This document shows positions 1,357 through 41,854 of a stretch of 43,890 nucleotides of DNA, piece after piece; position 1 is the stretch's first letter, and every line of letters begins with the position of its first letter. Source of the stretch: Parabacteroides faecalis. GTDB lineage: Bacteria > Bacteroidota > Bacteroidia > Bacteroidales > Tannerellaceae. The stretch lies in NCBI RefSeq assembly GCF_022809355.1, contig NZ_JAKZMM010000035.1:1-43890 (forward strand), read 5' to 3'. The position numbers and the translations under genes were made by a program. The notes below the pieces were generated by a model. The model was given only the letters and a program-made list of their open reading frames with translations, did not search any database and was not told where the DNA came from.

Positions 1357-1358
1357 AG

Positions 1359-22306: not shown

Positions 22307-24304
22307 ATGTCTCTTGTACCAAAACCGTTTCATGAATTGCTAAAAATGCATTTCATTATACCGCCGTATCAACGTGGATATCGTTGGGAATCACGTCAGG
22401 TAGAGGAACTTCTCGATGATTTGCTGGATTTTGTAAAATCTATGAAGTCAAAAAGAAACCGTAATAATGAAGGCCGTGAACCGTACTATTGTCTTCAGCC
22501 CATTGCAGTGGTAAGTCATCCGAAAAATGTAGATACTTATTTTGTTGTCGACGGTCAACAACGTCTTACAACTATATATATCCTTATGCATTATCTGTCG
22601 AAGAACAGTGATTATGAATACCCCGTATATGAGTTCTCTCTCCCTAGTAGGGATATTCAGAATGAATATCTGGCCAAACTTGAATTCATGGAGGATGATA
22701 AGAAATATATTGACAACATAGACAATTTCTATGTGAAGAAAGCGTATTCTACAATTGTAGAGTGGTTTTCTAGGGACGGGCATGACAGATATAAGGGAAA
22801 AATCCGGGATATCTTTGCTATGACTCCGGATGAGGACGAGGAACAAAACGATGTCCGAGTAATATGGTACGAAATCGGCAGCAAGGAAGCTCACAGAGCT
22901 TTCCGTGAACTGAACTATGGCAAAATTCCACTGACTTCGACGGAACTTGTCAAAGCTTTGCTGCTACAGGAAAGGAATACAAATTCTTCCGGGCATTACA
23001 GCAGGGGTGCATCATATCGCAGAGCGCTTGAATGGGACGCAATGGAGCATGCTTTACAGAACCCTTATTTATGGTCGATGCTGGCAGAAGCAAATGACGG
23101 AACATTGTCTCACATGGAACTTGTTCTGGATTTTGTGGCAGACAGACTGAACAATGAAATGACTGACGAGAATGGCAACAGGCCTGTGGAACGCAAGGAA
23201 TCCAAGAATTCCAGGGATGACTTCAATTATCAGGTAATCAATGAATATCTGAGGAGGAATGACAATAGCAGTGATACGGTAGAGGACGTATGGAAAAGAA
23301 TACAGATAATTTTCAATCTTGTATCGAACTGGTACTCTAACAGGCATTGGTATCATCTGATAGGGCTTTGCCGTATACTGCAAGTCGGAAAGCAACGGAA
23401 ACGCAGGGATTTCGTCGAGTATATCTATAAGATGTCTGTTGATGAAAACGGAACTCCTATAGACAGACCGCAGTTTACCGGCAGACTTGAAAAGGAGGTG
23501 GGCAGACTGGTCAGACTGGGTAAGGGTATTACTCTTGAAGGCCTCCGTTATGACGAAAACAACGATTCCATAATAAGAGTATTAAAACTGCTCAATGTAC
23601 AGGAAGCAATTAATGACAATACGGAGGAGAAGAGGTTTGCTTTTCATCTGTTTGAGATATTCAATGTGACATCGCTTGAACATATTCATCCGCAGAACAT
23701 TACATCCGACATCGGTTTCGAGGATTTCAGGATGTGGTTTGAAAGGAGAAGTGAGGATTTCAACAAACTTGATGATGCTGAATTGCGTGCCTTGCTCCAG
23801 AATGATATATCTAACAGTCCGGATTCTGATTCCATGGACATGGACTGGAGAATAGCAGAGAAGAAAAAGGAAGTAGAGAAGGCTATCAGTGTTTTGAAGT
23901 ATCTTACATCTGACAAAAAAATCTTTTCGGATGATTACAACCAGAACGAACTGGAACGAAATTCCACAATCCTTGACGGATTTTTCGGAGACCTGGCCGG
24001 AATAAAACCGGAAGATATGCATAGTATCAGGAATCTGGCCCTAGTTGACAAAGAAACAAATTCGGCCATGCAGAATTATCTGCTGGACAGAAAACGCTCC
24101 ATCCTTATGGGCCGTCATGACAGTTGTAACATTTCCAATCCGAAAAATCTAAAAGGAACTTATGCACTACCGGCAACACGTAAGGTGTTCTGTAAAGAGT
24201 ATTCAAGATGCTCGCCTGGTGATATGCGCTTATGGCGTCCGGAAGACAGGAACAACTATTTTAGAGTCATTAATGACGTATATGATTATTACACCTCAAA
24301 ATAA
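22307..24304 (+). CDS. DUF262/DUF1524 (GmrSD-like) protein
   Basis: A 665-aa protein. The N-terminal DUF262 domain, a ParB/Srx-like NTP-binding fold, shows IPPYQRGYRW (about 18-27) and FVVDGQQRLTTIYIL (about 81-95). The C-terminal part has the DUF1524 His-Me nuclease signature LEHIHPQN (about 456-463). Fused or paired DUF262/DUF1524 proteins (GmrSD, BrxU, SspE types) cut foreign or modified DNA in an NTP-dependent way. The next gene, also DUF262, begins 8 bp downstream. No separate promoter is obvious, so it may be read from the HipBA operon. Confidence 0.82.
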   Translation: MSLVPKPFHELLKMHFIIPPYQRGYRWESRQVEELLDDLLDFVKSMKSKRNRNNEGREPYYCLQPIAVVSHPKNVDTYFVVDGQQRLTTIYILMHYLSKNSDYEYPVYEFSLPSRDIQNEYLAKLEFMEDDKKYIDNIDNFYVKKAYSTIVEWFSRDGHDRYKGKIRDIFAMTPDEDEEQNDVRVIWYEIGSKEAHRAFRELNYGKIPLTSTELVKALLLQERNTNSSGHYSRGASYRRALEWDAMEHALQNPYLWSMLAEANDGTLSHMELVLDFVADRLNNEMTDENGNRPVERKESKNSRDDFNYQVINEYLRRNDNSSDTVEDVWKRIQIIFNLVSNWYSNRHWYHLIGLCRILQVGKQRKRRDFVEYIYKMSVDENGTPIDRPQFTGRLEKEVGRLVRLGKGITLEGLRYDENNDSIIRVLKLLNVQEAINDNTEEKRFAFHLFEIFNVTSLEHIHPQNITSDIGFEDFRMWFERRSEDFNKLDDAELRALLQNDISNSPDSDSMDMDWRIAEKKKEVEKAISVLKYLTSDKKIFSDDYNQNELERNSTILDGFFGDLAGIKPEDMHSIRNLALVDKETNSAMQNYLLDRKRSILMGRHDSCNISNPKNLKGTYALPATRKVFCKEYSRCSPGDMRLWRPEDRNNYFRVINDVYDYYTSK

Positions 24305-24312
24305 ACAAGAAT

Positions 24313-26736
24313 ATGCTCAACAAGAATACTGAAAAATACAATAAGTTCGCCGGCAGGAACGGTGTGGCTATCCCTATCATTCAACGTGACTATGTACAGG
24401 GGGCGGATGTGAACTTCGAGAAACGTGACAAGTTCATCAAGAAACTGTTTGATGCCCTGCTGAACCGTGAAACATGTGAACTGCATTTCATATATGGCTC
24501 TACGGATGTGACAAAACCGTCTGAACCGTATTTTCAGCCGGTGGACGGCCAGCAGAGGCTTACTACGCTTGCTCTTATAGGCTGGCTGCTGAACCAGAAG
24601 TGCGGCCTTAAATATTCAGGTTGCCTGAAGCCGCTTACATATACTTCACGTCCGTCAACAGAACAGTTCTGCAAACTTATGCGTGAATTCAAACTGCCGG
24701 AAAATCCTGGAACCACGATATCCGATTACATCAAGAATGTTCCCGGATGGTTTTCTGAATTCTGGAAACTGGATTCTTCGATAAATTCCATGCTTGAATT
24801 TCTTGACAAGGCTGATTCCCTACTTGGCTCTGAGAGATATAAAGACCATATAGAGGATATGGCGGAAACGTTCTTCAATGATTCTCCGTTTGAGTTTGAG
24901 AGCCTTGACATGGAGAACCTGGACCTGAATGATGACTTGTATGTCAAGATGAATGCCAGAGGTAAACTGCTTACACCATTCGAAAACTGGAAAGCGGAAT
25001 TCGAAGATTTTCTTGGTAAAAATTTCAAGGACGTAAAGTATCCGTTCAGGAATATTCCAGGGATACCGGATACGCCTACCTTGGAAGAATACTTTGAATA
25101 TTCAATAGAACATGACTGGTGTGATATACTCTGGCCGAGAGCGTACAAATGCTGGAATGCAAAAAGCGAGGAGGAAAAGAAGAAAATCCTGTATCCGTCC
25201 ATTGATGAATGGTTTATGAACCTGCTTGACTACGTGTCGCAGTTCCTTATGTTTGCCGCTATGCCGGATGCAGAGTCTGTTTACAAGAACAGCGGACTGA
25301 AAAACATGAGGGACCTTTATGCTCATGAAATAGACAGTTCAAGGATTGAAGTGTATAAGGAGGAGGAGAATGTGATAAAACTGTTCAGGATTCTTGATCT
25401 TCTTGTGGATATCTACAGGAGATGTGGGGATTTTGGTGCTTTCATGTCGCGTTATTTTATTGCAACTTCTTCTACCGCACGTCTGGATAAAGAGGTGGAG
25501 AGACATAAGGTCAACCTGTTTGACTGTAATATAGACCTTGTCTCAACCTGTTTGGAAACGGGGACTGATATGGATATTACATCCCAGATAGTTCTGTGGA
25601 GTTTCTTACAATGGATGCTTTCTCATCCGGAGGAACTGCTGCCGGATTCTGACATGGTCGCTTTTACAGATTACTTGCGTGTTATGACCGGTTGGGTAAG
25701 GGGTATGAGACAGCGTCTTACGAATGGATATCAGGTTGGAGCAAATGCCCGTTTGTCGGATTTCCATGAAGCAGACATTATTTCGAATAAACTTTCTGCT
25801 GCAGCCAATATGTTTGATGCTCTACTGGAAACAACGGAGAAATCGCTTGAAGATGAACGAGTTAAAGCCAGGTTGTATGGTACGCCAAATTTCGATATTA
25901 TCAGGGAATTGTCTACATGCCGTCCTCTTTATTATTCATTTGGGCTTCTGATGCCTTCCATTATAAGCTGCAGTGATACGGAAAGTTACATTAAAAGGTT
26001 CTATGAATTCTGGACTATAAGTGACACGAAAAGGGTCCAGAAACTTGTAAGCTGCGGTTTCAAAGGTATCAGACCATATGTGGACTGTTGGTTCTACGGT
26101 ATGACGGGAAGATGGGATTATATCTTCACTATAGGTAAAGATGACAGAGGGTTTGTCAATGTTATTGAAGCTTTTACGCATCTGATGAACGGTGATAGTC
26201 CTATATGTTATTCTTATGATACCATGGCTTATTATATGGTGAAATATAAGGACTTTGTAGAGGCAAATGGGGGTGGTGTGATGCGTCACTATTTCAGACA
26301 TGATGCAGGTAATGAATTTACTGTATGGACCATTAAATCCCCAAAAACGAAACCACGGCAGGGTACTAATACTGACCCATATGCCTACACTGTGCGTAAG
26401 CTCTATGAAGGTGAAGGAAGTAATGAATACGAACTCAGTGATTGGAGTGAGAATTCGGAACATGGAGCATTGTACATAAGGACTGAAGGTTCGGATTCTG
26501 ATGCCATGTATATGGAATGCTATCCCAAAGGTTGGGAGATTGGCATATGGGACAAAAGGCAGAAAGTTACGAGAAAGTTTGGAAATCGTTTTGAAACTAT
26601 TTCAAACGCTGAAGGAAATGCTGTTGGCTTTAGGGATACTGAAAATATCTTCAGCTTTGACGGTCTGGTGCTGCTTGATCTTCCCGGTAAGGACCGTATA
26701 CAGACTGCACTTTCTTTTTTAGAAGCTATATCATAA
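24313..26736 (+). CDS. Second DUF262-domain protein
   Basis: An 807-aa protein with a DUF262 core: VAIPIIQRDYVQG (about 18-30), FQPVDGQQRLTTLALI (about 75-90) and YVKMNARGKLLTPFENWKAE (about 212-231). The latter is the usual distal DUF262 motif. I see no His-Me nuclease motif like the one in the partner. The last 250 residues are beta-rich (for example SEHGALYIRTEG, MYMECYPKGWEIGIWD) and may bind DNA or another protein. Immediate linkage (8 bp) to the first DUF262 gene implies a two-component restriction system in which only one subunit carries a visible nuclease. Slightly richer in G+C than the flanking operons. Confidence 0.8.
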   Translation: MLNKNTEKYNKFAGRNGVAIPIIQRDYVQGADVNFEKRDKFIKKLFDALLNRETCELHFIYGSTDVTKPSEPYFQPVDGQQRLTTLALIGWLLNQKCGLKYSGCLKPLTYTSRPSTEQFCKLMREFKLPENPGTTISDYIKNVPGWFSEFWKLDSSINSMLEFLDKADSLLGSERYKDHIEDMAETFFNDSPFEFESLDMENLDLNDDLYVKMNARGKLLTPFENWKAEFEDFLGKNFKDVKYPFRNIPGIPDTPTLEEYFEYSIEHDWCDILWPRAYKCWNAKSEEEKKKILYPSIDEWFMNLLDYVSQFLMFAAMPDAESVYKNSGLKNMRDLYAHEIDSSRIEVYKEEENVIKLFRILDLLVDIYRRCGDFGAFMSRYFIATSSTARLDKEVERHKVNLFDCNIDLVSTCLETGTDMDITSQIVLWSFLQWMLSHPEELLPDSDMVAFTDYLRVMTGWVRGMRQRLTNGYQVGANARLSDFHEADIISNKLSAAANMFDALLETTEKSLEDERVKARLYGTPNFDIIRELSTCRPLYYSFGLLMPSIISCSDTESYIKRFYEFWTISDTKRVQKLVSCGFKGIRPYVDCWFYGMTGRWDYIFTIGKDDRGFVNVIEAFTHLMNGDSPICYSYDTMAYYMVKYKDFVEANGGGVMRHYFRHDAGNEFTVWTIKSPKTKPRQGTNTDPYAYTVRKLYEGEGSNEYELSDWSENSEHGALYIRTEGSDSDAMYMECYPKGWEIGIWDKRQKVTRKFGNRFETISNAEGNAVGFRDTENIFSFDGLVLLDLPGKDRIQTALSFLEAIS

Positions 26737-26919: not shown

Positions 26920-26991
26920 CTAAAGCTTCTGAAAAAGATAGGTCTTTGTACGAATAGATTTACCGTAGTTTTTATTTTGTTCTTTACTCAT
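26920..26991 (-). pseudogene. Truncated AbiEii-type toxin gene stub
   Basis: An ATG at 26989-26991 overlaps the antitoxin stop (ATGA). It opens MSKEQNKNYGKSIRTK, the typical N-terminus of AbiEii-family toxins found with this antitoxin type, but the frame stops after 23 codons at TAG 26920-26922. Beyond that there are only short protein-like fragments. The toxin has been lost by deletion or frameshift, leaving the antitoxin alone. Confidence 0.55.
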
Positions 26992-27551
26992 AGTTTGACT
27001 TGCAGATAGTTTTCAAGGATTGTGCCCACACGGAGTTGTCTGGCATAATCCAGTAGTTTACTTATATTTCGTTCCGGTCGTGTAAGATAGTTATCTATGA
27101 TTTCTGAGCAGACATCAATACCTATTTTATTTCTAAACTTAATGGCATCACTTACGCATCGCTCTATATCATAGATCCTGATATTGTAACCCTCCAAAAC
27201 CATATTGCTTACCCCAATTTCTAGTATAGAAGCGGTATAGTGGTGAAGTTCTATTGGGGGAAATGAAGGTGTTACTACTTTTCTATCTCTTTTTATGGCC
27301 ACATGATAGGCTTGTGGCATAGAAGTCGTAAGTTGGTGTATGCTCCATGCAGACCAGAGGCAAAGAATTCCACCTGGTATAATCGCTTCTATGTCAATCA
27401 TGCTGTTTGAAAGTTGGTCAATGTTGGCATACAGCCCTCGTCGAACCTGTATCAGTTCACCTTGGCGTACACTTTCCAACATTTTGTAATAAGCAGCACG
27501 CCCTTTTTCCTTCATGTCTGATGATGATATGTATGAATTAAGTTTCTTCAT
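26988..27551 (-). CDS. AbiEi-family antitoxin (orphan)
   Basis: A 187-aa protein with the layout of type IV AbiEi antitoxins. A short N-terminal winged-helix region comes first (ISSSDMKEKGRAAYYKMLES, then GELIQVRRGLYAN; about 8-44). An AbiEi C-terminal domain follows, with AIIPGGILCLWSAWSIH, then YDIERCVSDAIKFRNKIG (about 125-145) and KLLDYARQLRV. AbiEi binds its own promoter and neutralises the AbiEii nucleotidyltransferase. The cognate toxin gene here is only a stub. A near-perfect palindrome overlaps the promoter. It may survive as an anti-addiction module against related toxins or simply be relic. Confidence 0.75.
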   Translation of the reverse strand: MKKLNSYISSSDMKEKGRAAYYKMLESVRQGELIQVRRGLYANIDQLSNSMIDIEAIIPGGILCLWSAWSIHQLTTSMPQAYHVAIKRDRKVVTPSFPPIELHHYTASILEIGVSNMVLEGYNIRIYDIERCVSDAIKFRNKIGIDVCSEIIDNYLTRPERNISKLLDYARQLRVGTILENYLQVKL

Positions 27552-28049: not shown

Positions 28050-28259
28050 ATGGCGATAGACAATAATTTAAATAGACTTAAAGTAGTGCTCTGTGAAAAA
28101 AAGAGAACTAGTAAATGGTTGGCACAACAACTTGGTGTTAATCCGACAACAGTGTCTAAATGGTGTACTAATACGACTCAACCAGACTTGTATACTATCG
28201 CAAAAATTGCCGACTTGTTGCAGGTTGATAAAAGGGAATTGCTGCAATCTTCAAATTAA
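28050..28259 (+). CDS. Small XRE-family HTH regulator (operon head)
   Basis: A 69-aa single-domain regulator (TSKWLAQQLGVNPTTVSKWC, then QPDLYTIAKIADLLQV, then DKRELL). It is closely similar along its whole length to the regulator at 17029-17244, which heads the other large defence operon in the opposite direction. It starts the five-gene operon, with an 8-bp gap to the NurA-like gene. Likely repressor of the operon. Confidence 0.88.
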   Translation: MAIDNNLNRLKVVLCEKKRTSKWLAQQLGVNPTTVSKWCTNTTQPDLYTIAKIADLLQVDKRELLQSSN

Positions 28260-28267
28260 GAGAATTT

Positions 28268-29452
28268 ATGGGATTAGTAATAGACTATATCATTCAATCT
28301 TCCGATGGAGAAGTTAAAGCATATGATAGTCAAAAAAGATTCATTGATGAAACTGAAAATGATACTTTCGGTGAGTTTGATGATCATATTAATGAAGTGA
28401 CTATTAAAGATAAATCGTTATTATATGCAGAGGATAAGCCTTTTAAGGAAAGTCAGAAGAAGATTGACCCCGATTTAATTAGAAAAAAACACAATAAGAG
28501 CCTATTTAAATATTTTTTGGATGGGACAAGACAAGTTTATAAAGTTGGAGATATAGCTATTGATGGGGTCGTTTACCCTTTAGCTGTTGGACAGATTATT
28601 GTCGGTTATTGTGGTAGAGAAGGTAGGGATATAAAAATAGGTAAGGCCATTCGTAAACTTGTCTTGGCTGTACCAGTTCAGTATGATACAAAGGAACAAG
28701 GTCAAAACTTCTTTCGAAAGAAGTGTGAAGAAATAAATAAGAAGGTTCAGGAATCGTTGTTTTACCAAAAGTTCCACATGAAATTTTCGGATGTTATATC
28801 TTATGGCAATATTACGGATAAGCAAGTCGAGATGGGGAGAAATAAATATCTTAGACTGGCCATCTCAAAAATCCAAAACGAAATGCTGGATCAAGAACGA
28901 CTGCTTGTAGAAGAAATGGTTTTGAATGGGCTGGTGTCTAATGATGATGCTATGTTAATAAAGGATGGTTCAATTGAATATAAAGAGGATTTTACGAATC
29001 GCCCAGATAAGGAATTGGCAAGTGCCGTTTTCAATCAAAATTTTAGGGATGTAGTGGGTGTCTCAAAATTGTTTGATCCGGAATTATTGAGTAGAAACGA
29101 ACCTCATATCGGAACGATTATAGCTGAATTGAAACCTATGCATAGAACTAAAGCTTATCGATATATTCATGAAGGAAAAAGTTATTGTGTTTGGTATATT
29201 CGTTTACGAAATACAATAAACCGTTCTAACAGTTATTCTGATATCATAAAGGTTGAAATGTTTATGGTAGGAAACAAAGTAAAACAATCTGCTTTAATTG
29301 ACTCAATTTCAGCGCACCTTATAAATGAAGCATATCCTGTTTGTTACGGAAAAGATGCAAGATGGGCAAATCATTTATATCCAGTGTATGTAACTGAAGC
29401 CTTTTGCAAATCTAATTTCGTGGATGAAAAATTGATAATAAAAATTATATAA
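28268..29452 (+). CDS. NurA-like nuclease
   Basis: A 394-aa protein with the marks of the NurA 5'-3' nuclease fold (RNase H-like): motif I YFLDGTRQVYKVGD (about 82-95, Asp85 as the expected metal ligand) and VVGVSKLFDPELL (about 257-270). HIGTIIAELKP, the CVWYIRLRNT strand (about 316-325) and DIIKVEMFMV with its Glu near 339 follow. The C-terminal basic segment KDARWANHLYPVYVTEAF is also typical. NurA partners the HerA hexameric ATPase in archaeal end resection and in bacterial defence systems. A HerA gene begins 5 bp downstream, which supports the call. Confidence 0.75.
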   Translation: MGLVIDYIIQSSDGEVKAYDSQKRFIDETENDTFGEFDDHINEVTIKDKSLLYAEDKPFKESQKKIDPDLIRKKHNKSLFKYFLDGTRQVYKVGDIAIDGVVYPLAVGQIIVGYCGREGRDIKIGKAIRKLVLAVPVQYDTKEQGQNFFRKKCEEINKKVQESLFYQKFHMKFSDVISYGNITDKQVEMGRNKYLRLAISKIQNEMLDQERLLVEEMVLNGLVSNDDAMLIKDGSIEYKEDFTNRPDKELASAVFNQNFRDVVGVSKLFDPELLSRNEPHIGTIIAELKPMHRTKAYRYIHEGKSYCVWYIRLRNTINRSNSYSDIIKVEMFMVGNKVKQSALIDSISAHLINEAYPVCYGKDARWANHLYPVYVTEAFCKSNFVDEKLIIKII

Positions 29453-29457
29453 TAAAT

Positions 29458-31155
29458 ATGAGCAACAATAGTAAAATTATAGGAAAAGTCTCTGCAACGG
29501 AGAAAAATCCGTCAACGATTGACTATTTTTACTTTTGGATGGACTCTAATAATGATGATTTAAGTCCATTCGATGTTATTATGGTTGAAAATCCCAACAA
29601 CTCCGTGACCTACGCTATTGTTGAGGAAATCAATCATGTCACTGACTCATCTAGTCATTTCACTAGTTACATATCATCAGAATTTGGTTCTCTCGCAAAT
29701 GTTGAGTCTGAACAAGCTGGCAATACAAATAGACTTTCTTTTAGTTATGTAAAAGCAAAAGTAGTACATAATACAAAAAATACTTATACTCCTGTACTTC
29801 ATGATAGACCAGTTTGCCTGTGTACTCCAAAGGGAATAAGAGAAGCATTGGGCCTTGATGATGTAAAAAATCCATTAACCTGTGGTTACATGGAAATGTA
29901 TGGTAATAAAGTCAAGGTTGATATAAATGACAAATTCTTAATTGGTCCTGATGGTGCTCATTTGAATGTGTCTGGCATTTCTGGACTCGCTTGTAAGACT
30001 TCTTATACTATGTTTCTGTTGAACGCCTTGCAGCAAAAGTATAGGAAAGCATGGGAGGAATCTGAAGATGAAGATAATAAGTCTCAGAAAATTACATATT
30101 TAGTGTTTAATGTTAAGGGACGTGATTTGTTGACACTTGATATCCCTAACGAAAAACTAGATGAAACTCAAAAGAGAATCTATCGTGAAGAGTTAGGTTT
30201 AGAACCGGAGCCATTTAAGCAAGTTTACTATTATTATCCTCACGGTAAAAATGCTTCTCGGAATTATACGCAATCAAATGCAGATAAGGATGATATGGAC
30301 AGACAGTTTATTGAGAAAAATGCATGCCGGTATTTCTACAATTTTGAAAGTAGCAGAGACAAACTTCAATATTTGTTTGCAAATGAGCCTGATCCAACAG
30401 GAACTATAGATAGTATTATTAGCTACTTGATGGATTATGGTCATCCATTTGGTCCTTCTGTAACGACTTGGGAGGAATTCTTTAAGGCGTTAAATAGCGT
30501 AACTATTCCAGGAAGTACCACACTCCAAGGAACTAATATACAATTGGCTTCTTGGAAGAAATTTGCGCGAATAATGAGAAAATTTCAATCCGAAGATTTG
30601 TTCGTAGATAAAGGCCATGAGATTACAGATAGGAGTGACTTGGCTTCAGACTTGTTTGACAACATGAACCCAAACGATGTTAAAGTAATCGATATAGCCC
30701 AACTAGATCCATTTATGCAAGGTTTTGTGTTTGGAGATGTAATTCAGCAGGTGGTTGAACGTATGAGCGCAAAAGACAAGAATACACCTGACAAGATTGT
30801 TATTTTTGTAGACGAGTTGAATAAGTATGCTTCAACAGATGTTCCGAAATCTTCTCCTATTCTTAGACATCTATTAGATGTTGCTGAAAGAGGTAGGGCT
30901 TTAGGTATTATTTTGTTCTCAGTGGAGCAATTTAGAAGTGCTATCCATGAACGTGTAAAAGGTAATTGTGCTAACTCCGCTTATGGTAGAACAAACTTTG
31001 TTGAAGTCACTAAACCTGATTATCAATTCTTTGGCAATATTTATAAGAATATGATGACAAGATTAGCTCCTGGTGATTATATAATTAGTAACCCTGCATT
31101 ACGTTCATTAGTTAGTATAAAATTTCCATACCCAACTTTTAAATCAAACAATTAA
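29458..31155 (+). CDS. HerA-like hexameric ATPase
   Basis: A 565-aa protein with an N-terminal HAS-barrel-like domain (SATEKNPSTIDYFYFW and later strands, about 10-100). A HerA/FtsK-type P-loop domain follows: Walker A GISGLACKTSYTMFLL (about 171-186) and Walker B IVIFVDELNKYA (about 443-454). RGRALGIILFSVEQFRSAIH (about 480-500) and ANSAYGRTNFVE come near the arginine-finger region. The Walker A has Ala-Cys before Lys-Thr, a variation that I believe occurs in defence-type HerA proteins. HerA translocates DNA and feeds it to NurA. Its stop overlaps the next start (TAATG), indicating coupling to the GHKL protein. Confidence 0.82.
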   Translation: MSNNSKIIGKVSATEKNPSTIDYFYFWMDSNNDDLSPFDVIMVENPNNSVTYAIVEEINHVTDSSSHFTSYISSEFGSLANVESEQAGNTNRLSFSYVKAKVVHNTKNTYTPVLHDRPVCLCTPKGIREALGLDDVKNPLTCGYMEMYGNKVKVDINDKFLIGPDGAHLNVSGISGLACKTSYTMFLLNALQQKYRKAWEESEDEDNKSQKITYLVFNVKGRDLLTLDIPNEKLDETQKRIYREELGLEPEPFKQVYYYYPHGKNASRNYTQSNADKDDMDRQFIEKNACRYFYNFESSRDKLQYLFANEPDPTGTIDSIISYLMDYGHPFGPSVTTWEEFFKALNSVTIPGSTTLQGTNIQLASWKKFARIMRKFQSEDLFVDKGHEITDRSDLASDLFDNMNPNDVKVIDIAQLDPFMQGFVFGDVIQQVVERMSAKDKNTPDKIVIFVDELNKYASTDVPKSSPILRHLLDVAERGRALGIILFSVEQFRSAIHERVKGNCANSAYGRTNFVEVTKPDYQFFGNIYKNMMTRLAPGDYIISNPALRSLVSIKFPYPTFKSNN

Positions 31156-32861
31156 TGGAAGGATATAAAAGCAGAATCGGTAAGTCCCAAATGCGTCAGT
31201 ATATGGGCGAACTCTATGAGGATTGTATGGTCGTGTATCGAGAGTATATACAAAATGCTTGCGATGCAATTGAAGATGCTGTGGAAAAAGGACTTATTAC
31301 AGATAGAAAGAAAACGACAATTGTTGTAACGATTGATACGTTTAATCACAATATTATTATAGAAGACAAAGGTATCGGCATTTCTGTAGAAAATATCGGG
31401 CCTTATCTTGTTGATGTGGCTTCTTCAAAAAAAGTTAATAGAGCTGGACAATATGGCATAGGTAGGCTTAACGGTGCTAATTATTGCGATCAAATTCGAT
31501 ATGAAACCTCAACCTTTGGGGAACCCATTAAATCCACTCTTATATGGGATGTAAAAAAGGCTCGTGAAATATGTAACAATCCAGAACTAGATCCTACTAC
31601 TGAAGAAATAATAGATGATGTTACTACTCTCTGTCCACAAGAACAAGAAAAAGAGGAGGAACATTATTGTCGTGTAACCTTAGTTAATGTCAACAACACA
31701 GAGTTGATGGACGAAGATAAAGTTATTGAGTATATTCAGCAGATTGTTCCAGTGGATTATTGTACAGTGTTTAAAGACAACCTATTAAAGCCTGCATTAG
31801 AACGACCTGTAAATCATGGATTTATCGAAAAGTTTAAGAACTTATGGATATATAAGATTAGTGTAAACGATACACCAGTCGAGAAAAGATATTCATCCGA
31901 AGAGAAAGATTTTGAATTTGGAAGTATTAGATGTTTTTCTCTTAAGGATAATAAAACGCAAGAAGAATTTGCGTGGGGATGGTATGCAATGAATAAAGAA
32001 GCTAAGCAAATGAATGATTTGCCTATATCGTTTATTAGAGCTAGACATTGTAATTATCAGATAGGACCTAGTACTTTGTTGTCTGGTTTGTATCAAGCAG
32101 TTATAGACCAATCTTATTTCATTGGAGAAATGCACCTCGTTCATGAGCAGCTTAAGCCTACAGCATCTCGTGACGGAATCAATCAAAATGATACAAAGTT
32201 GATTTTCGAGAGGGAAGTCCGTAAATTCTTTAAGGAATTGAAGACTCTTTATAACAAAACAAGCAAGTTTAGAAGTGAAGTAGTTGATAAAATCGCAGAT
32301 GCTAGTATCCAACTTGTTAATTTAAGTCAACAATTGAAAAAAGAAAATGAAGCCTCTGAAATTAAGAATATTAAAAATAAGATACAAAAAGCAAAAGAGG
32401 ATAAAGCAAGGGCAATGTCTAAGATAAATGCATATGAAGATTTTTTCAATAGTAATGATTCTTGGAGTGTTGCAGAAGATGTTGTCAATAGTGTAAATTC
32501 TTCTACTATTAAAGCATTTAATAATAAAACTGAAATAATTAAGCAGAATTTACAGCTACCAGCCATAAAAATAGAGAATTTCAAAACAAAAGAAGAAACT
32601 TCAACACCAGATTCTGAAAAAAAGAATGGTAATAACAGTGAAGGAAATGGAGGTGATAGTATTTCAAATCCTCCATCTTCAAATCCGGATGATAAAATTA
32701 CTCCACCTTCACCACCCTCAGAACTTGATATTTATAAAGGACTGAGCCTTGTAGAAAGAAGGTTAATTAAAAAGTTTTATGCAGTAATTGACAAAGCATC
32801 AGAAATACCACCCAAAATTAAAGATCAATTGAAGAATAATTTAAGAAAGAAAATTCTGTAA
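31155..32861 (+). CDS. GHKL (Hsp90/MutL-type) ATPase
   Basis: A 568-aa protein with a complete Bergerat ATP-binding fold: N-box YREYIQNACDAIEDA (28-42; Glu30, Asn34, Asp37), G1 box EDKGIGI (70-76) and G2 box AGQYGIGRL (97-105). A middle domain with HEQLKPTASRDGINQND follows, as seen in Hsp90-like proteins of defence loci. A coiled coil (about 375-430, Lys/Glu-rich) and a Pro/Ser-rich linker precede a short C-terminal helix. No zinc or nuclease motif is seen. Such ATPases act as nucleotide-driven clamps. Overlapping start and stop codons on both sides (TAATG) tie it to HerA and to the radical SAM gene. Confidence 0.82.
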   Translation: MEGYKSRIGKSQMRQYMGELYEDCMVVYREYIQNACDAIEDAVEKGLITDRKKTTIVVTIDTFNHNIIIEDKGIGISVENIGPYLVDVASSKKVNRAGQYGIGRLNGANYCDQIRYETSTFGEPIKSTLIWDVKKAREICNNPELDPTTEEIIDDVTTLCPQEQEKEEEHYCRVTLVNVNNTELMDEDKVIEYIQQIVPVDYCTVFKDNLLKPALERPVNHGFIEKFKNLWIYKISVNDTPVEKRYSSEEKDFEFGSIRCFSLKDNKTQEEFAWGWYAMNKEAKQMNDLPISFIRARHCNYQIGPSTLLSGLYQAVIDQSYFIGEMHLVHEQLKPTASRDGINQNDTKLIFEREVRKFFKELKTLYNKTSKFRSEVVDKIADASIQLVNLSQQLKKENEASEIKNIKNKIQKAKEDKARAMSKINAYEDFFNSNDSWSVAEDVVNSVNSSTIKAFNNKTEIIKQNLQLPAIKIENFKTKEETSTPDSEKKNGNNSEGNGGDSISNPPSSNPDDKITPPSPPSELDIYKGLSLVERRLIKKFYAVIDKASEIPPKIKDQLKNNLRKKIL

Positions 32862-34852
32862 TGAGAATTAAAAGGAACATTCTACTTGTAGAACCGAATT
32901 ATAAGAATAAATTTCCTCCTATTGGTTTGATGAAGTTGTCTACTTACTTTAAATCTTTAGGTGACAATGTCGTTTTTTTTAAGGGCGACATTAAGGATTT
33001 TATTCTTGAACGAGCTGTAGAAAAGTGCATAGGAAAGTTAATTAGCATTGCTCCTAGAGATAATTGGAGAAGCAAACATGATGCAATTAAGAGCTATATT
33101 AAAACTCGTAAAGCTGTGTATCTTGAACGTTTGGAAATTGCCAATGATAGAGAAGATTATGTACTAATTTTAGATTGGCTCAATTATTTTAAAGATTATA
33201 TTTGGAAAAAGTACTATCTTAATAATGATGAAAAAGAATGGGACTGGATAGGTGTTACAACTTTATTCACGTTTTATTTTGACATAACAGTAAAGACTAT
33301 AAATCAGGTTAAAGAGTTGTTAAAACCTAATGGACAAATTATGGTTGGAGGAGTTTTGGCAACTTTGCAACCAGAAGAACTTGAAGATGCCACAAATATT
33401 AAACCATTCGTTGGTTTGCTTAATAAACCAGGTATCATTGATAATGACAATGAAATAATTATAGATACACTTCCATTAGATTATTCCATATTAGAAGAGA
33501 TTGATTACCGATATGATATGTCAAATGCGTATTATGGATCAATGACTAAAGGTTGTGTTAGACATTGCGCGTTCTGTGCAGTGCCTAAGATAGAGCCTGA
33601 GTATATGGATTATATACCTATGTCTGATAGGGTTGAACGTGTGAAAAATAAATTTGGAGAGCAAAAAGACTTGTTACTGATGGATAACAATGTTCTTGCT
33701 TCTGAAAGATTTAATGATATTATTGACGATATTATTAAGTGTGGATTTCAGCGAGGTGCAACTTATCAAGCTCCAAATCAATTAGAATTAGCTATATCAA
33801 ATCTGCAAAAAGGTATCAATGACAGAGCATACTTGCGCATGGCACAGCGAGAGTATTCAAACTTCCTTTCTTCTATTAAAGAAAAAGAGTTATCATATAA
33901 GATATATTCGATTTTGTACGATTTTGGTTTGCTTTCGTTGGGTACAAGTACAAAGGATAATGCAATAAAGGCTTACGAACTTATATCAAATGATTATGCC
34001 AAATTTTATAAGCGGTTAAGACCTAAGCAGCGTATTGTTGATTTTAATCAAGGGGTTGATGCTCGACTATTCACTGAAGAAAAGGCGGAGATGTTGTCTA
34101 AAATTGCTATTTCTCCATTACGAATTGCATTTGATTCTCTTTCAGTGAAGGATGATTATATACAGGCAATACGATGGAGTGCAAAATATGGAATCAAGAA
34201 CTTTTCAAACTATCTTCTCTATAATTTCACTGACAAACCATCTGATTTGTATGAACGACTAAAGATAAATGTTGAATTGTGTGATGAATTGGGTATTAAT
34301 GTATATTCTTTTCCTATGAAATATCATCCTTTATTGGGAGAGTATAGTCATGATCGAGACTACATAGGTAAACATTGGAATAGAAAATATATCCGTTCTA
34401 TTCAAGCCATTCTTAATTCGACGAAAGGAAGCATTGGTAGAGGACAATCATACTTTCAAAAGGCATTTGGTAGAGATATTCATGAATATTATACGTTACT
34501 TGAAATGCCGGATACCTATATTATTTACCGTTTCTTTTTTGAATGGCTTGAAAAAAAATCTCATCCGCTAAGTATGAAGCGATGGGTTGATGCTATGAAT
34601 TCTTTGTCAATACAAGAAAGAGACACTCTGTTGTCTATAATACACGATAAAAACTTTACTCAAACAAATAAGAGTGAAGATTATGGAGAACGTATCAATG
34701 ATGTGTTGAAATTTTATGTAAATTTACGTGACGAGATTTCAGATCCAAAAGGCTGTTTGTGGAAACTTAAAAAAGAATTTGATTCGTTGCCCAAAGATGA
34801 ATTAGATTATATAAAAGATTCATTTGTAGGTGTTTTAACAATATACAGATAG
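32861..34852 (+). CDS. Radical SAM protein with B12-binding-like N-terminus
   Basis: A 663-aa protein. The N-terminal ~200 residues resemble the cobalamin-binding-like domain of B12-dependent radical SAM enzymes (ILLVEPNYKNKFPPIGLMKL; a later GVTTLFTFYFDITVKTI; GQIMVGGVLATLQPEE), although the DxHxxG ligand motif is not evident. The [4Fe-4S] cluster motif is clear: KGCVRHCAFCAVPKI (about 231-245, Cys-x3-Cys-x2-Cys). A TIM-barrel-like region with FNQGVDARLFTEEKAEML and RIAFDSL follows, then a long helical tail. Its start overlaps the GHKL stop. A radical enzyme beside HerA and NurA could modify a nucleotide, DNA or protein; the substrate is unknown. Confidence 0.82.
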   Translation: MRIKRNILLVEPNYKNKFPPIGLMKLSTYFKSLGDNVVFFKGDIKDFILERAVEKCIGKLISIAPRDNWRSKHDAIKSYIKTRKAVYLERLEIANDREDYVLILDWLNYFKDYIWKKYYLNNDEKEWDWIGVTTLFTFYFDITVKTINQVKELLKPNGQIMVGGVLATLQPEELEDATNIKPFVGLLNKPGIIDNDNEIIIDTLPLDYSILEEIDYRYDMSNAYYGSMTKGCVRHCAFCAVPKIEPEYMDYIPMSDRVERVKNKFGEQKDLLLMDNNVLASERFNDIIDDIIKCGFQRGATYQAPNQLELAISNLQKGINDRAYLRMAQREYSNFLSSIKEKELSYKIYSILYDFGLLSLGTSTKDNAIKAYELISNDYAKFYKRLRPKQRIVDFNQGVDARLFTEEKAEMLSKIAISPLRIAFDSLSVKDDYIQAIRWSAKYGIKNFSNYLLYNFTDKPSDLYERLKINVELCDELGINVYSFPMKYHPLLGEYSHDRDYIGKHWNRKYIRSIQAILNSTKGSIGRGQSYFQKAFGRDIHEYYTLLEMPDTYIIYRFFFEWLEKKSHPLSMKRWVDAMNSLSIQERDTLLSIIHDKNFTQTNKSEDYGERINDVLKFYVNLRDEISDPKGCLWKLKKEFDSLPKDELDYIKDSFVGVLTIYR

Positions 34853-34873: not shown

Positions 34874-34919
34874 AAACAAGCTTTGACATTCGGTTTTATT
34901 CGTTTGTCAAAGCTTGTTT
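34874..34919 (+). terminator. Operon-end hairpin
   Basis: AAACAAGCTTTGACA (34874-34888) and TGTCAAAGCTTGTTT (34905-34919) form a perfect 15-bp stem with a 16-base loop. It begins 22 bp after the radical SAM stop and is followed by a T-rich stretch (CTATTTTATG). It very likely ends the five-gene operon. The palindrome may act in both directions, but the mobilization operon stops farther right, at 35103. Confidence 0.75.
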
Positions 34920-39115: not shown

Positions 39116-40324
39116 ATGATAGCAGAAATTAGATTTAAGAATATGTTCTCATTCAGAGACGAGGCTATATTAAGTTTTGAAGCTGATAGAAGTAAGGATA
39201 TGGAGTCATATCATGTTGTCGAATTGGGGGGTGATGTGAGACTATTGAAAGTGGCTGTCATTTATGGAGCAAATGCTTCGGGTAAGAGTAATATTATTAA
39301 AGTTTGTGATTTTATCAAATCATTCATTACTTATACCCCACTTAATAAGGCAGAACAAATTCAAATAGTCCCGTTTCTCCTGAATAAAACAAGTTCGAGG
39401 CAGTTATCTGAATATTCGATTTCGTTCTACTTGAAGAATGAGGAAAAAGCAGTTCGTTATGTCTATTCTGTAGCTTTAGACAGGTGGCACGTAGCAAAGG
39501 AAAGTCTGATCTATTATCCAAGTCAACAGCCTGCTACTATATTTGAAAGAAATACTGAGAATAACGTATCAGTTATTAAATTTGGACAGAAGATTAAAAT
39601 GTCGCAATCTGTCAAAGAGGAAATAACATTGAAGTGTTTGCATAACATGTCAGTTTTTGCTGCTTATATGCAGGTAAATACACATATTGTAGAATTAGAG
39701 GCAGTTCTTCAGTATCTAACCAATCAGGTTATGCCGGCAATTGTGCCTGCATCATCTTTAAGTCGTTATGCCGAAGAATCAATCAAGAATGAGTCTGCAA
39801 AAGATTATATTTTGAGATATCTACAGGAAGCTGATTTCAATATTTCAAATATTACTTCCAAAGAACAGGAAACACATAAAGGTTCGATTAATTATACTAT
39901 GTATCAGCATAAAGTATCATCTGATGATGGTAACAATGATTATTATGAGTTCCCGGAACTGTTTGAATCGGACGGTACTATCCGTACGTTTGGCTTGGCC
40001 GCTCAAGTGCAAAAGATTCTTGAAAAAGATGCTTTTCTTGCAGTTGACGAGATTGAATCCTCTCTTCATCCGAAATTGATAGAATACATCATTGAACGTT
40101 TTCTAAAAGAATCAGAGCAAGCCCAGTTGTTGCTCACTACACATTATGATGGACTATTAGGAGAAGAAGATTTGCTTAGGAAAGATAATGTTTGGTTTAC
40201 TGAAAAGAATCCGGACGGATCAAGTGTGCTGTATCCTCTAACAGATTTCAAAGGATTGAATAGGATTAGTTCTCTCCAAAAGGCATATAAATTTGGTAAA
40301 TTCGGTGCAGTTCCTAATCTATAA
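39116..40324 (+). CDS. RloA/AbiLi-like AAA ATPase (ABC/SMC-type)
   Basis: A 402-aa protein: N-terminal RFKNMFSFRDEAILSF strand, Walker A YGANASGKSNI (50-60), and a helical insertion. Then come a signature-like region with YEFPELFESDGTIRTFGLAA and Walker B AFLAVDEIESSLHPKL (about 303-318). The H-loop LLLTTHYDGLL is present. This is the layout of RloA/AbiLi ATPases, which pair with RloB/AbiLii nucleases in phage exclusion. The partner follows 12 bp downstream. In related two-gene systems (AbiL, PARIS) the ATPase holds the effector until a phage trigger is sensed. Confidence 0.82.
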   Translation: MIAEIRFKNMFSFRDEAILSFEADRSKDMESYHVVELGGDVRLLKVAVIYGANASGKSNIIKVCDFIKSFITYTPLNKAEQIQIVPFLLNKTSSRQLSEYSISFYLKNEEKAVRYVYSVALDRWHVAKESLIYYPSQQPATIFERNTENNVSVIKFGQKIKMSQSVKEEITLKCLHNMSVFAAYMQVNTHIVELEAVLQYLTNQVMPAIVPASSLSRYAEESIKNESAKDYILRYLQEADFNISNITSKEQETHKGSINYTMYQHKVSSDDGNNDYYEFPELFESDGTIRTFGLAAQVQKILEKDAFLAVDEIESSLHPKLIEYIIERFLKESEQAQLLLTTHYDGLLGEEDLLRKDNVWFTEKNPDGSSVLYPLTDFKGLNRISSLQKAYKFGKFGAVPNL

Positions 40325-40336
40325 TCATGTACTTTT

Positions 40337-40915
40337 ATGAGAAAAGCAAGAAAAAATACAGCGACCAGACAGGTTATTCATATCGTTGGTGAGGGTTTGA
40401 CTGAATTATTTTATTTCAGTCATTTGAAAAAAATACTTGGTTATAGATATTCTATTTCTCCTCGTTTATTTGAAAACAATAGTATTGAGAAAATAGATAA
40501 GAAGATAAAGGAACTTCTAGATGAAGATGTCTTTGTAATATGTGTTTTTGATGCAGATGTTAGCAGGCGTTCTGATGCGGAAAATAAAAAAATGGTGTCG
40601 CTCAAAAAGAAATATGAAAATAATCCCAATGTGATTCTCTGTGATAGCTTACAGTCAATAGAATATTGGTTTTTACTACATTTTGAAGATACGTGTCGAC
40701 ATTTTCAAGATTCAGCAGCTACAGAAAGAGCATTAAAGCAATATCTGCCAACATACGATAAAACTCGAAAATACCTTGAGAAGGATAAATGGGTTAAAGA
40801 AATGCTTGCTGATTCAAAAATGGATAGGGCATGTGAACTAGCCGAAAAATATAAAGGTAGAGATTCTTATAGTGAGATTTATAAGGCGATTAAAAAAGTT
40901 AGTGAATCGTTGTAA
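40337..40915 (+). CDS. RloB/AbiLii-like Toprim-type effector
   Basis: A 192-aa protein matching the RloB family. HIVGEGLTELFYF (15-27) supplies the Toprim-like Glu, VFVICVFDADVSRR (about 67-80) the Asp-x-Asp, and SLQSIEYWFLLHFEDT (about 103-118) is the family's typical I-E-x-W-F-L-L-H-F block. Toprim-type nucleases in such pairs act as abortive-infection effectors, and tRNA cleavage is known for the related PARIS AriB. Full length, with no missing motif. Confidence 0.8.
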   Translation: MRKARKNTATRQVIHIVGEGLTELFYFSHLKKILGYRYSISPRLFENNSIEKIDKKIKELLDEDVFVICVFDADVSRRSDAENKKMVSLKKKYENNPNVILCDSLQSIEYWFLLHFEDTCRHFQDSAATERALKQYLPTYDKTRKYLEKDKWVKEMLADSKMDRACELAEKYKGRDSYSEIYKAIKKVSESL

Positions 40916-40928
40916 TAAATATGGATTG

Positions 40929-41792
40929 ATGAAAAAAAAAGATTTATATGCTGTTTGGGGAATCATAGTTAGTGGAATTACTATTGCATTTATTATTAAT
41001 TTGTTGTTAACATATGGTAATATTATCAAAACAAATCTTTCAAATGACTCGTGGTTAAATTTTTGGGGAAGTTATAGTAGTGGAATTTTTGCTGTTGTAG
41101 TAGGTTATCTTGCTATTATTTATAGTAATAGAAATAATGAGAAAGCTATTCTGCAACAGGAAAAGCTGTTAATTCGTCAACAAAATATTAAAAAGTTGGA
41201 TGAGTATAATAACTGTCTAAAAAATAATTTGGCTTTACTTAATGTAGTAGATGTTATGGGAATTACTGTTGGTATTGATCATCAGAATTTATCATTATCC
41301 AAATCGGCTATATGTCAAATGAAAGGTCGAATTTATACAACAGATTTACAGTATAGATATGTATTTGAAGTAGATGTACAACGCCAGAAAACAAATTTAG
41401 AAAAGGCTTATGAAGAATGCTGGATTAAAGCACGTATGGGACTATCTGATTTATTAGATCAAGAACTCTCTTTTATAGAACGTATTAATCAAAATAGATA
41501 TGATATTCAAATAAAAGAGAATAATATGCATCGAAAAAATATCTTATTGGATTTAAGTAAACAAACGCCAGACGTAGAAAAAAGAAAGTCACTTCAGCAA
41601 GAGATTCAGGAAGTAAACATTGAACTGGAACGATTAGATAGAAAAATTATTTCATACTATGATGATGTTGATAAGATGACCACTTCGATTAAAGATTTTT
41701 CTCTTGAATTGAATAATACTATAAAGGTCTTGTTTGATATATCTTTATTGCTTATTAAAGAGAAAGAGGCCCAATTTAAATTAGAAAAATAA
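40929..41792 (+). CDS. Two-TM coiled-coil protein, unknown
   Basis: The start is taken as the ATG at 40929; the frame extends upstream into rloB but would overlap it by 44 bp. This gives 287 aa with two transmembrane helices (WGIIVSGITIAFIINLLLTY, about 8-28; SGIFAVVVGYLAIIY, about 48-64). A cytosolic region of about 220 residues is mostly coiled coil (for example QEIQEVNIELERLDRKIISY). It lies 13 bp after RloB and 62 bp before AbiH. A two-TM plus coiled-coil plan suits a membrane-acting effector or sensor in this operon. No family name is recognised. Confidence 0.65.
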   Translation: MKKKDLYAVWGIIVSGITIAFIINLLLTYGNIIKTNLSNDSWLNFWGSYSSGIFAVVVGYLAIIYSNRNNEKAILQQEKLLIRQQNIKKLDEYNNCLKNNLALLNVVDVMGITVGIDHQNLSLSKSAICQMKGRIYTTDLQYRYVFEVDVQRQKTNLEKAYEECWIKARMGLSDLLDQELSFIERINQNRYDIQIKENNMHRKNILLDLSKQTPDVEKRKSLQQEIQEVNIELERLDRKIISYYDDVDKMTTSIKDFSLELNNTIKVLFDISLLLIKEKEAQFKLEK

Positions 41793-41854
41793 TAGGGTGG
41801 TATATATTTGCCCATGTTTTTGGATGTCTTATAAAAGCTATTACAAGGAATATA

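Follow-up and report, generated by a model that had tools for sequence, protein, structure and literature searches.

A conserved NurA-HerA-GHKL-radical SAM operon as a candidate mobile DNA-targeting system

Results

A NurA-family nuclease, a HerA-family translocase, a GHKL ATPase and a radical SAM (rSAM) enzyme are encoded together in an operon that appears to be a widespread and undescribed molecular machine: relatives of the rSAM enzyme occur in at least 539 genome stretches, and among the best 80 of these the whole unit is present in 64 of the 67 loci that could be judged. What is new is the gene architecture. The GHKL-rSAM core belongs to no system that we found described, the parts are members of known families and the function is predicted. 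The operon may represent a new bacterial way of marking and destroying invading DNA.

Layout of the operon

The operon lies in a Parabacteroides faecalis contig (NZ_JAKZMM010000035.1), and by the window we mean the whole stretch of this contig that was analysed (43,890 nt). Its predicted features are:

28050..28259, + strand, XRE/Cro-type HTH regulator, 69 aa (Pfam HTH_26 2.2e-9, HTH_3 6.2e-9)
28268..29452, + strand, NurA-family nuclease, 394 aa (profile match to DrNurA 7f6d_H 6e-14, TM1739 0.002)
29458..31155, + strand, HerA-family DNA translocase, 565 aa (profile match to DrHerA 7f6d 1.3e-136)
31155..32861, + strand, GHKL (Hsp90/MORC-like) ATPase with long C-terminal helices, 568 aa (HATPase_c_3 2.7e-7)
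32861..34852, + strand, rSAM enzyme with an N-terminal B12-binding-like Rossmann domain, 663 aa (Radical_SAM 9.5e-5, B12-binding 2e-5)
34874-34888 / 34905-34919, no strand assigned, perfect 15-nt inverted repeat with a 16-nt loop, 3' of the last gene, terminator-like

As an earlier note on this DNA had described, all genes lie on the same strand, with gaps of 8 and 5 nt followed by two TAATG overlaps. The same note had the operon end at a 15-bp hairpin; the perfect inverted repeat is there, but it is absent from the output of the terminator scan, and terminator-like is therefore the strongest wording that we use for it. The Pfam cut-offs were reached by the XRE and HATPase_c_3 matches, and the Radical_SAM and B12-binding matches on the rSAM protein were below theirs. 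The XRE product, which among PADLOC models matched RmrA (5e-7) over its HTH part only, is perhaps the regulator of the operon.

Four genes are conserved as a unit

The operon had been put forward as a five-gene unit, of which four genes, NurA-HerA-GHKL-rSAM, proved to be conserved together. The XRE gene did not, since only 6 of 64 relatives showed an XRE-like gene 5' of NurA, a figure that may be an undercount because the profile used was weak and built from two sequences; we thus reject a five-gene unit, and the XRE gene is an occasional accessory. Gene order was judged in the 67 loci where the contig extends at least 5.2 kb upstream of the rSAM gene, the other 13 being set aside for contig ends, and in the 64 loci NurA, HerA and GHKL preceded rSAM in that order on the same strand. 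The earlier note had staked its claim on the operon recurring elsewhere as a multi-gene unit, which it clearly does.

The unit is carried by Bacteroidota, Bacillota and several other phyla, where single phylum labels are weak because the contigs of metagenome-assembled genomes (MAGs) may be mis-binned. The full order is also found in records not marked as MAGs, namely those of Prevotella ruminicola KHT3, Dysgonomonas macrotermitis, Hymenobacter sp. YC55, Lachnoclostridium sp. An196, Faecalibacterium longum and, with the GHKL gene split, Parabacteroides chinchillae. Among 295 Bacteroidales genomes HerA was present in 8, rSAM in 11 and both in 7 (Fisher p 7e-11, kinship ignored). Occurrence was patchy among 395 Bacteroidota genomes, a sample sharing a few genomes with the first, where HerA was found in only 6, rSAM in 6 and both in 5 (Fisher p 5e-10, kinship again ignored). 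The four proteins co-evolve: their pairwise distances correlate at r 0.61-0.95, a level reached in 0 of 500 permutations. Conserved order, correlated distances and the co-occurrence of HerA with rSAM together rule out that these genes are chance neighbours.

NurA and HerA belong to the Deinococcus family and keep their active sites

Neither NurA nor HerA had a Pfam match at E ≤ 0.1, and against NCBIfam both gave chance-level matches only (E 0.08 and 0.03), and their identity was assigned by profile comparison against solved structures. The HerA profile matched DrHerA over profile positions 3-559 of 560, and the NurA profile matched both DrNurA (7f6d chain H) and T. maritima TM1739 (E values listed above); by this comparison the two proteins are members of the Deinococcus DrHerA/DrNurA family.

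The complete motif sets that the earlier note had reported are borne out by the relatives, in which the catalytic residues are near-universally kept, with the nuance that the HerA P-loop (GISGLACKTS, Lys180) differs from the classic GxxxxGK[ST]; DrHerA aligns with the same loop type. Lys180 and the Walker B pair Asp452-Glu453 were kept in 68 of 68 HerA relatives and Arg480 in 67. The NurA gene lies directly 5' of HerA and its product has an acidic active site, Asp85, Glu210 and Asp233 being invariant (67/67 relatives). According to PMC9960219, DrHerA activity requires Lys175 and Asp487/Glu488, and the operon's HerA, as a DrHerA relative, retains the residues given there as essential (Lys180 and Asp452-Glu453).

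In the HerA tree, six SbcCD-type rows (plasmid or genome) are separated from the rSAM-linked group with support of 100/99, and the operon's HerA forms a group apart from the relatives beside SbcD-SbcC (Mre11-Rad50). Three of the six rows, on plasmids, have annotated SbcD and SbcC/SMC neighbours; of the others, one (L015) is accompanied by a large ORF and by a putative exonuclease, one (L225) looks alike by eye and one (L016) is unannotated. Neither GHKL nor rSAM was found in the neighbourhoods examined of this sister group, where the neighbours are mostly SbcD-SbcC, proteins that recognise DNA ends, and GHKL-rSAM occupies the place that SbcD-SbcC holds there. We suggest that the HerA-NurA engine can be fitted with either of two control heads, Mre11-Rad50 or GHKL-rSAM.

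The GHKL ATPase and the rSAM enzyme

The GHKL protein has the boxes of the Bergerat fold with the catalytic Glu and Asn, and its ATP-site residues (Glu30, Asn34, Asp71 and Gly98/101/103) are kept in 70 of 70 relatives. Its structure model (pLDDT 86) gave Hsp90 and then MORC as top PDB folds. While sharing fold and ATP-binding boxes with the MORC/MutL/Hsp90 ATPases, it differs from them in being a dedicated operon partner of rSAM with its own C-terminal helical region.

In the rSAM protein the cluster motif Cys232-x3-Cys236-x2-Cys239 is joined by the motifs DNNxxAS and DFNQGxDxR, and the three cysteines are present in 80, 80 and 79 of 80 relatives; in the one exception the residue is an X. The CxxxCxxC motif and the top PDB folds of its structure model (pLDDT 91; MgmA, TsrM, MtaB/MiaB, AprD4 and RimO) place it in the radical SAM superfamily. 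With the B12-domain enzymes MgmA, TsrM and AprD4 and with MiaB/RimO/MtaB it has in common a Rossmann domain and an rSAM barrel; it differs from them in the signature DFNQGxDxR, in two insertions and in a near-invariant C56 beside the cluster cysteines. The MiaB/RimO methylthiotransferases hold a second cluster by three N-terminal cysteines, whereas among our 45 aligned sequences C56, C232, C236 and C239 are the only invariant or near-invariant cysteines, leaving C56 alone outside the first cluster. The substrates of the best-matching folds are protein, small molecules or tRNA, and DNA for none of them; we give even chances to this enzyme acting on nucleic acid. The conserved active sites suggest that all parts of the operon are active.

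GHKL-rSAM without NurA-HerA

On alphaproteobacterial plasmids GHKL-rSAM lacks HerA-NurA. It is accompanied there by a DndB/DGQHR protein and often by a PIN-like gene, which lay nearby in four of the five plasmid regions examined. The rSAM gene was found on 12 plasmid records (some near-duplicates). All of these also encode this DGQHR protein, which occurs on 13 records in total, and none of the 12 has HerA. By annotation, the five regions contain no Dnd or Dpd modification enzyme. Because NurA-HerA is missing from this branch, GHKL and rSAM may be the core of the system. This is also the only branch in which another nuclease-like gene has truly replaced NurA-HerA, extra genes elsewhere being mostly additional. 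We therefore rejected a scheme of several exchangeable nucleases, the HNH match in L020 being below cut-off and alongside NurA-HerA.

The likeness to Dnd/Dpd systems (DndB, DpdB) extends to a Kiritimatiellae operon (L103) that includes a DGQHR protein (TIGR03187 above cut-off; TIGR04172 1.1e-104, below its cut-off; DpdB 8e-14), although DGQHR was present in only two of the best 80 genome loci, this one and, more weakly, L098. P. faecalis differs from these systems in that neither its locus nor its genome has a DGQHR protein (0 matches to the DndB profile PF14072), and the chemistry would be rSAM-based. Other departures from the standard unit are G057, with a split GHKL gene and rSAM but NurA-HerA not adjoining, and Marinitoga camini virus 1, with NurA, HerA and rSAM and no recognised GHKL. 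The operon's rSAM enzyme carries the DFNQGxDxR signature and two insertions that are missing from the Marinitoga row and from the four alphaproteobacterial ones.

Comparison with known systems

The earlier note, which knew of no described system with these parts, had called for a check against defence models, and the outcome agrees with it. Against 5027 PADLOC models (PADLOC-DB 2023), NurA and rSAM had no match at E ≤ 1, GHKL matched Csm2 at best (0.06) and HerA matched only mad8 (1.6e-5, over 76 residues) and HerA (0.04), so that none of the four proteins has a convincing match there. Nor did PADLOC, Pfam and NCBIfam together give a convincing match to a named system, and in open-access PMC papers we found no description of NurA, HerA, GHKL and rSAM together.

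The operon resembles D. radiodurans NurA-HerA (7f6d) and archaeal HerA-NurA/Mre11-Rad50 in its families, P-loop type, NurA-before-HerA order and catalytic residues. It differs from them in having GHKL and rSAM instead of Mre11-Rad50 (no Mre11 or Rad50 gene is in the operon), in its separate HerA group and in being rare and patchy. The Sir2-HerA and DUF4297-HerA antiphage systems, from which we take several of the PDB's HerA entries to derive, also couple a HerA ring ATPase with an effector enzyme. However, the PDB HerA entries found other than DrHerA match the operon's HerA only remotely, with E values between 1.7e-9 and 0.006 where DrHerA gives 1e-136, and Pfam and PADLOC searches found no Sir2 or DUF4297 partner among the operon's proteins.

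Genomic surroundings

The window is a defence island, with two GmrSD_N proteins, AbiEi, AbiLi/AbiLii and PDC-M26A. A relaxase-like gene adjoins the operon, copies also occur in viral-collection contigs, a restriction-type pair lies beside the L017 operon, and the surroundings are mobile. Known defence genes near the relatives' operons showed no clear enrichment over controls among the PADLOC matches listed: 130 neighbour proteins (of 499 eligible) matched 65 families, the 25 most-matched of which were listed with 3 members each, and 130 control proteins (of 196) gave at most 2 members per family. Defence is nevertheless the probable purpose of the operon.

Proposed mechanism and alternatives

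We propose, at odds that we would place a shade under even, that the operon encodes a mobile anti-invader system directed at DNA: GHKL-rSAM would mark DNA or license it, and DNA left without a licence would be destroyed by NurA-HerA. In the effector module NurA would digest the dsDNA that the HerA ring pumps into it, on the model of the DrHerA-NurA structure; pumping and digestion are what the family would lead one to expect. In the control module the GHKL protein would be an Hsp90/MORC-like ATP-gated clamp, by analogy with its own family, and rSAM its dedicated partner. With GHKL as the DNA-loading clamp, the rSAM enzyme would mark resident DNA or read the absence of the mark, and NurA-HerA, loaded on unmarked incoming DNA, would degrade it. 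A self mark had been the logic suggested by the earlier note, and the DGQHR/DndB association lends it some support, while the lack of a DndB homologue in the P. faecalis genome counts against it; that the mark would mean self we only infer. A fuller version seems doubtful to us, in which rSAM, guided by the MORC/Hsp90-like clamp (and by the DGQHR protein in some lineages), would place a radical-chemistry mark on resident DNA, unmarked DNA would be destroyed by a nuclease module (NurA-HerA in most, the PIN-like protein in the alphaproteobacterial branch), and the short rSAM relatives of tailed phages and of the host's own prophage-like region would be a counter-marking tool. If the rSAM enzyme acts on DNA, radical chemistry would enter restriction. 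Several observations count against the mechanism: HerA-NurA is known chiefly as a nuclease of DNA repair, none of the best rSAM folds acts on DNA, DGQHR is scarce among the genome loci, G057 has no NurA-HerA beside GHKL and rSAM, true replacement of NurA-HerA is seen in one branch only, and known defence genes showed no clear enrichment near the relatives among the PADLOC matches listed.

Alternatively, the operon could serve mobile elements in DNA repair or recombination, with NurA-HerA resecting ends for the replication, integration or recombination of the carrier, GHKL acting like MutL or Rad50, and rSAM repairing or altering a damaged base or end. The closest characterised relatives of HerA and NurA are indeed repair enzymes, the sister HerA genes adjoin SbcD and SbcC/SMC, and the Marinitoga virus does without a recognised GHKL. 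Yet the operon is without Mre11-Rad50, HerA is rare among the 395 Bacteroidota genomes, and defence genes surround the P. faecalis operon as the restriction-type pair flanks that of L017, and we regard a repair role as unlikely. It is distinctly improbable that rSAM makes a diffusible product, either an antiviral nucleotide like those of the viperins or a signal, to which NurA-HerA and the other partners respond as effectors. The viperins are antiviral rSAM enzymes, and the combination of a single rSAM-GHKL pair with several partners, some additional and some alternative, recalls signal-effector systems, but the DGQHR link suggests DNA, the enzyme is unlike viperins in its MgmA/TsrM/MiaB-type fold and its B12-like N-terminal domain, rSAM matched no PADLOC model, and the Pfam scan of the P. 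faecalis operon found no cyclase or known sensor domain. The best folds, MgmA (a protein glutamine methylase) for rSAM and Hsp90 for GHKL, would also suit a protein maturase and its chaperone, acting together to modify or assemble a protein partner, either HerA-NurA or another. However, GHKL-rSAM is present where NurA-HerA was not seen, so HerA or NurA cannot be the general substrate, and the SbcCD-type HerA group has neither GHKL nor rSAM in the neighbourhoods examined, which makes this account very improbable.

Short rSAM relatives in phages

Short relatives of the rSAM enzyme are carried by tailed phages and by a prophage-like region of P. faecalis itself, and action of the enzyme on DNA, if it occurs, would offer a possible reason for their abundance in phages. 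A ParB-rSAM link in phages, seen at 18 loci by single-linkage clustering, was dropped because a representative search placed ParB within 4 kb of rSAM in only 2 of 77 loci. An acyl-carrier-like gene lies beside the prophage-like rSAM gene and was seen at only two further loci, where its distance from rSAM is 3.3 and 8 kb.

Composition of the operon

The five rightward genes that the earlier note placed at 28050–34852 are present when the open reading frames are read, and the perfect 15-nt inverted repeat it described lies 3' of them. The XRE protein and the GHKL (Hsp90/MORC-like) ATPase were recognised by Pfam, and the radical SAM protein matched the Pfam Radical_SAM and B12-binding domains, both below cut-offs. 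For NurA and HerA, Pfam gave nothing at E ≤ 0.1, and the NCBIfam matches were at chance level. A profile of HerA relatives matched Deinococcus radiodurans HerA (7f6d) at E 1.3e-136 with the whole profile covered, the remaining HerA entries lying far behind (1.7e-9 and weaker), and the NurA profile matched Deinococcus NurA at 6e-14 (for this pair see PMC9960219, cited from an excerpt). The structural model of the GHKL protein (pLDDT 86) best matched Hsp90, then MORC2/3, and that of the radical SAM protein (pLDDT 91) matched MgmA, TsrM, MtaB, MiaB, AprD4 and RimO; the latter is predicted to be a Rossmann plus radical SAM-barrel enzyme of the B12-domain type.

NurA, HerA, GHKL and radical SAM form a conserved unit

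With a radical SAM alignment as query, at least 539 relatives were found in the genome collection and the best 80 were analysed; 13 loci with less than 5.2 kb upstream were set aside and 67 judged. In 64 of these 67, NurA, HerA and GHKL lie upstream of the radical SAM gene, on the same strand and in that order, with overlaps mostly of up to 8 nt or gaps within 28 nt (starts taken from the longest ORF). Their record titles name Bacteroidota, Bacillota, Lentisphaerota, Kiritimatiellae, Mucispirillum and Aminicenantes; a Desulfatibia locus (L105) has the full order too, but was among those set aside as short. The exceptions are an Altiarchaeales locus (L089) with GHKL, a 332-aa protein and radical SAM; L090, which lacks the partners and has a protein of 874 aa whose start looks receiver-like by eye; and L102, where 285- and 128-aa ORFs follow NurA-HerA at the place expected for GHKL. 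Because loci were picked by radical SAM similarity, broken radical SAM genes are under-represented among the 80.

Among 295 Bacteroidales genomes, 8 had HerA, one of them being that of the window. In six of the other loci (L017–L022) a radical SAM gene lies downstream of HerA on the same contig, with GHKL-type genes between, and the remaining one (L023) is truncated at a contig end. HerA and radical SAM were searched for independently within the same genomes, in two samples sharing a few genomes: both occurred in 7 of the 295 Bacteroidales, HerA only in 1 and radical SAM only in 4 (Fisher p 7e-11, kinship ignored), and among 395 Bacteroidota the counts were 5, 1 and 1 (p 5e-10, kinship ignored). 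The co-occurrence that the earlier note proposed to check is found among loci for the four proteins and among genomes for HerA and radical SAM. All four non-window Bacteroidota genomes carrying both keep the order NurA-HerA-GHKL-radical SAM, extra genes allowed. In the HerA-only genomes, HerA lies at a contig end (G274) or is, by eye, of the SbcCD type (G477); the radical SAM-only genomes comprise two with the gene at contig ends (G083, G183), one with a split GHKL and radical SAM without adjoining NurA-HerA (G057) and two with fragments (G294, G552).

Gene interruptions were also seen: in-frame stops in HerA and radical SAM (L020), a split GHKL (L021/L051, L241), a HerA interrupted by an inserted 428-aa ORF (L022), a split HerA (L087) and a radical SAM remnant (L242).

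Catalytic residues and co-evolution

After removal of ORFs under set lengths, NurA Asp85, Glu210 and Asp233 were kept in 67/67 relatives, HerA Lys180, Asp452 and Glu453 in 68/68 (Arg480 in 67/68), GHKL Glu30, Asn34, Asp71, Gly98, Gly101 and Gly103 in 70/70, and radical SAM Cys232 and Cys236 in 80/80 (Cys239 in 79/80, the remaining one being X). This near-invariance agrees with the earlier proposal that all parts can be active, and that all four are active enzymes is strongly supported. Pairwise distances of the four proteins correlate across 63 loci plus the window (r 0.61–0.95), with none of 500 permutations as high.

Alternative partners

In the HerA tree, HerAs of cyanobacterial, Chloroflexi and actinobacterial plasmids and of G477 form their own group (100/99); on the other side of the split lie the radical SAM-linked HerAs, Marinitoga camini virus 1 and two viral contigs. 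SbcD (Mre11-type) plus SbcC (Rad50-type) or SMC is annotated beside three of the six HerAs in the plasmid/G477 group; for a fourth (L015) the neighbours are a putative exonuclease and a large ORF, the G477 locus is similar by eye and L016 lacks annotation. GHKL-radical SAM therefore occupies the place that Mre11-Rad50 has in this sister group. In the cyanobacterial and Chloroflexi plasmids L013, L014 and L015, NurA-HerA is followed by SbcD-SbcC-type genes, and L013 has an ImmA/IrrE-type gene nearby.

GHKL-radical SAM was also found without HerA-NurA. Five alphaproteobacterial plasmid records have the order DGQHR (DndB/DpdB-type)-radical SAM-ATP-binding protein, the last being GHKL in 3/3 tested by BLAST; nearby, four of the five carry a PIN-like gene together with a second ATP-binding protein, four an annotated helicase and three a gene annotated as ParB. 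The 12 plasmid records with radical SAM all fall within the 13 carrying that DGQHR protein, and none of the 12 has HerA (found in 6 plasmid records overall). A Kiritimatiellae operon (L103) reads NurA-HerA-220 aa-DGQHR-GHKL-radical SAM, its DGQHR protein matching TIGR03187 over cut-off, TIGR04172 under cut-off (1.1e-104) and DpdB at 8e-14. In a radical SAM tree, built by a quick method and with long branches flagged, the forms with DGQHR/GHKL and with NurA-HerA group together at 100 SH-aLRT (64 rows), and all 11 short phage rows sampled fall outside.

Extra genes recur among the 80 loci: an AAA_15 ATPase with a 265–295-aa protein in 4, and a 330-aa family, mostly immediately 5' of radical SAM, in 7, both scattered across the tree. 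The 330-aa family had no Pfam match above cut-off and a weak NCBIfam PP_RS20740 family match (8e-5). A large protein with an RpoA-CTD-like domain, mostly downstream of radical SAM, occurs in 17 and is possibly an accessory of the system. In L020 the gene after HerA encodes an HNH-like protein whose Pfam match stays under the cut-off.

Examples of extra genes
L089 9006–10004, 330-aa family
L093 6291–7283, 330-aa family
L058 3697–6126, RpoA-CTD-like-domain protein, near radical SAM
L022 16183–18603, RpoA-CTD-like-domain protein, near radical SAM

Viral relatives

Short relatives of the operon's radical SAM protein are common in the viral collection. IMG/VR held at least 441 related stretches; among the best 80, three had NurA, HerA, GHKL and radical SAM, 13 GHKL and radical SAM, 61 radical SAM alone and three none by profile. 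A HerA-centred scan gave at least four viral loci, three with downstream GHKL and radical SAM, and missed L136. On C18, another contig of the window's genome, a 309-aa radical SAM protein among genes phage-like by eye shares the cluster motif, DNNxLAS and VDFNQGxDAR with that of the operon; its gene overlaps an 86-aa acyl-carrier-like gene (by eye; L243 5032–6200).

Setting and possible role

The window is a defence island.

Features around the operon
172–1353, PDC-M26A match (2e-54)
1359–3710, protein with 42% identity to a DUF2357 plus PD-(D/E)XK protein adjoining the operon in L017
20970–22247, HipA
22307–26736, tandem pair of GmrSD_N (DUF262) proteins, a short distance upstream of the operon
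26988–27551, AbiEi (1e-52)
39116–40912, AbiLi and AbiLii (1.5e-75, 6e-17)

A relaxase-like gene, 38% identical to a Pfam-recognised relaxase, lies directly downstream of the operon. Around the relatives, a PADLOC scan of 130 of 499 eligible neighbours found no clear excess of known defence genes over controls (130 of 196 proteins, from five genomes). The ten recurring neighbour families scanned were integrase, relaxase, RhuM-Fic, Fic, Schlafen AlbA_2, ORF6N, a DUF4143 ATPase, BT4734-like and two metabolic enzymes.

Mobility, patchiness and the island setting of the window suggest that the operon probably has an anti-invader role, a judgement we put no higher because nuclease replacement was seen in one branch only. 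That the radical SAM protein acts on nucleic acid, to which mainly the DGQHR link points, we regard as evenly balanced. A scheme in which it and GHKL would mark resident DNA, with NurA-HerA destroying DNA without the mark, seems doubtful. Because GmrS is said to resemble DGQHR (PMC4619093, in excerpt), the two GmrSD_N proteins might, speculatively, substitute for the DGQHR partner of other loci.

In the literature searched, no paper mentioned HerA and NurA together with radical SAM and either GHKL or defense, or radical SAM and GHKL with phage and defense system, and in the sole paper found for DGQHR with radical SAM the two have no connection. In the excerpt of PMC10853773, on Dnd and HerA/FtsK capture, 'radical SAM' concerns DndC; PMC7824862, PMC13092281, PMC10250203 and PMC3226654 are likewise cited from excerpts.

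Window 172–3713 forms a gene pair, the PDC-M26A match and the relative of the DUF2357/PD-(D/E)XK protein, and in L017 a MrcB_N-AAA plus DUF2357 pair lies next to the operon. At 39116–43138, behind the AbiLi/AbiLii-like pair, come an ORF of 306 aa and a protein that weakly matches AbiH over 28 residues.
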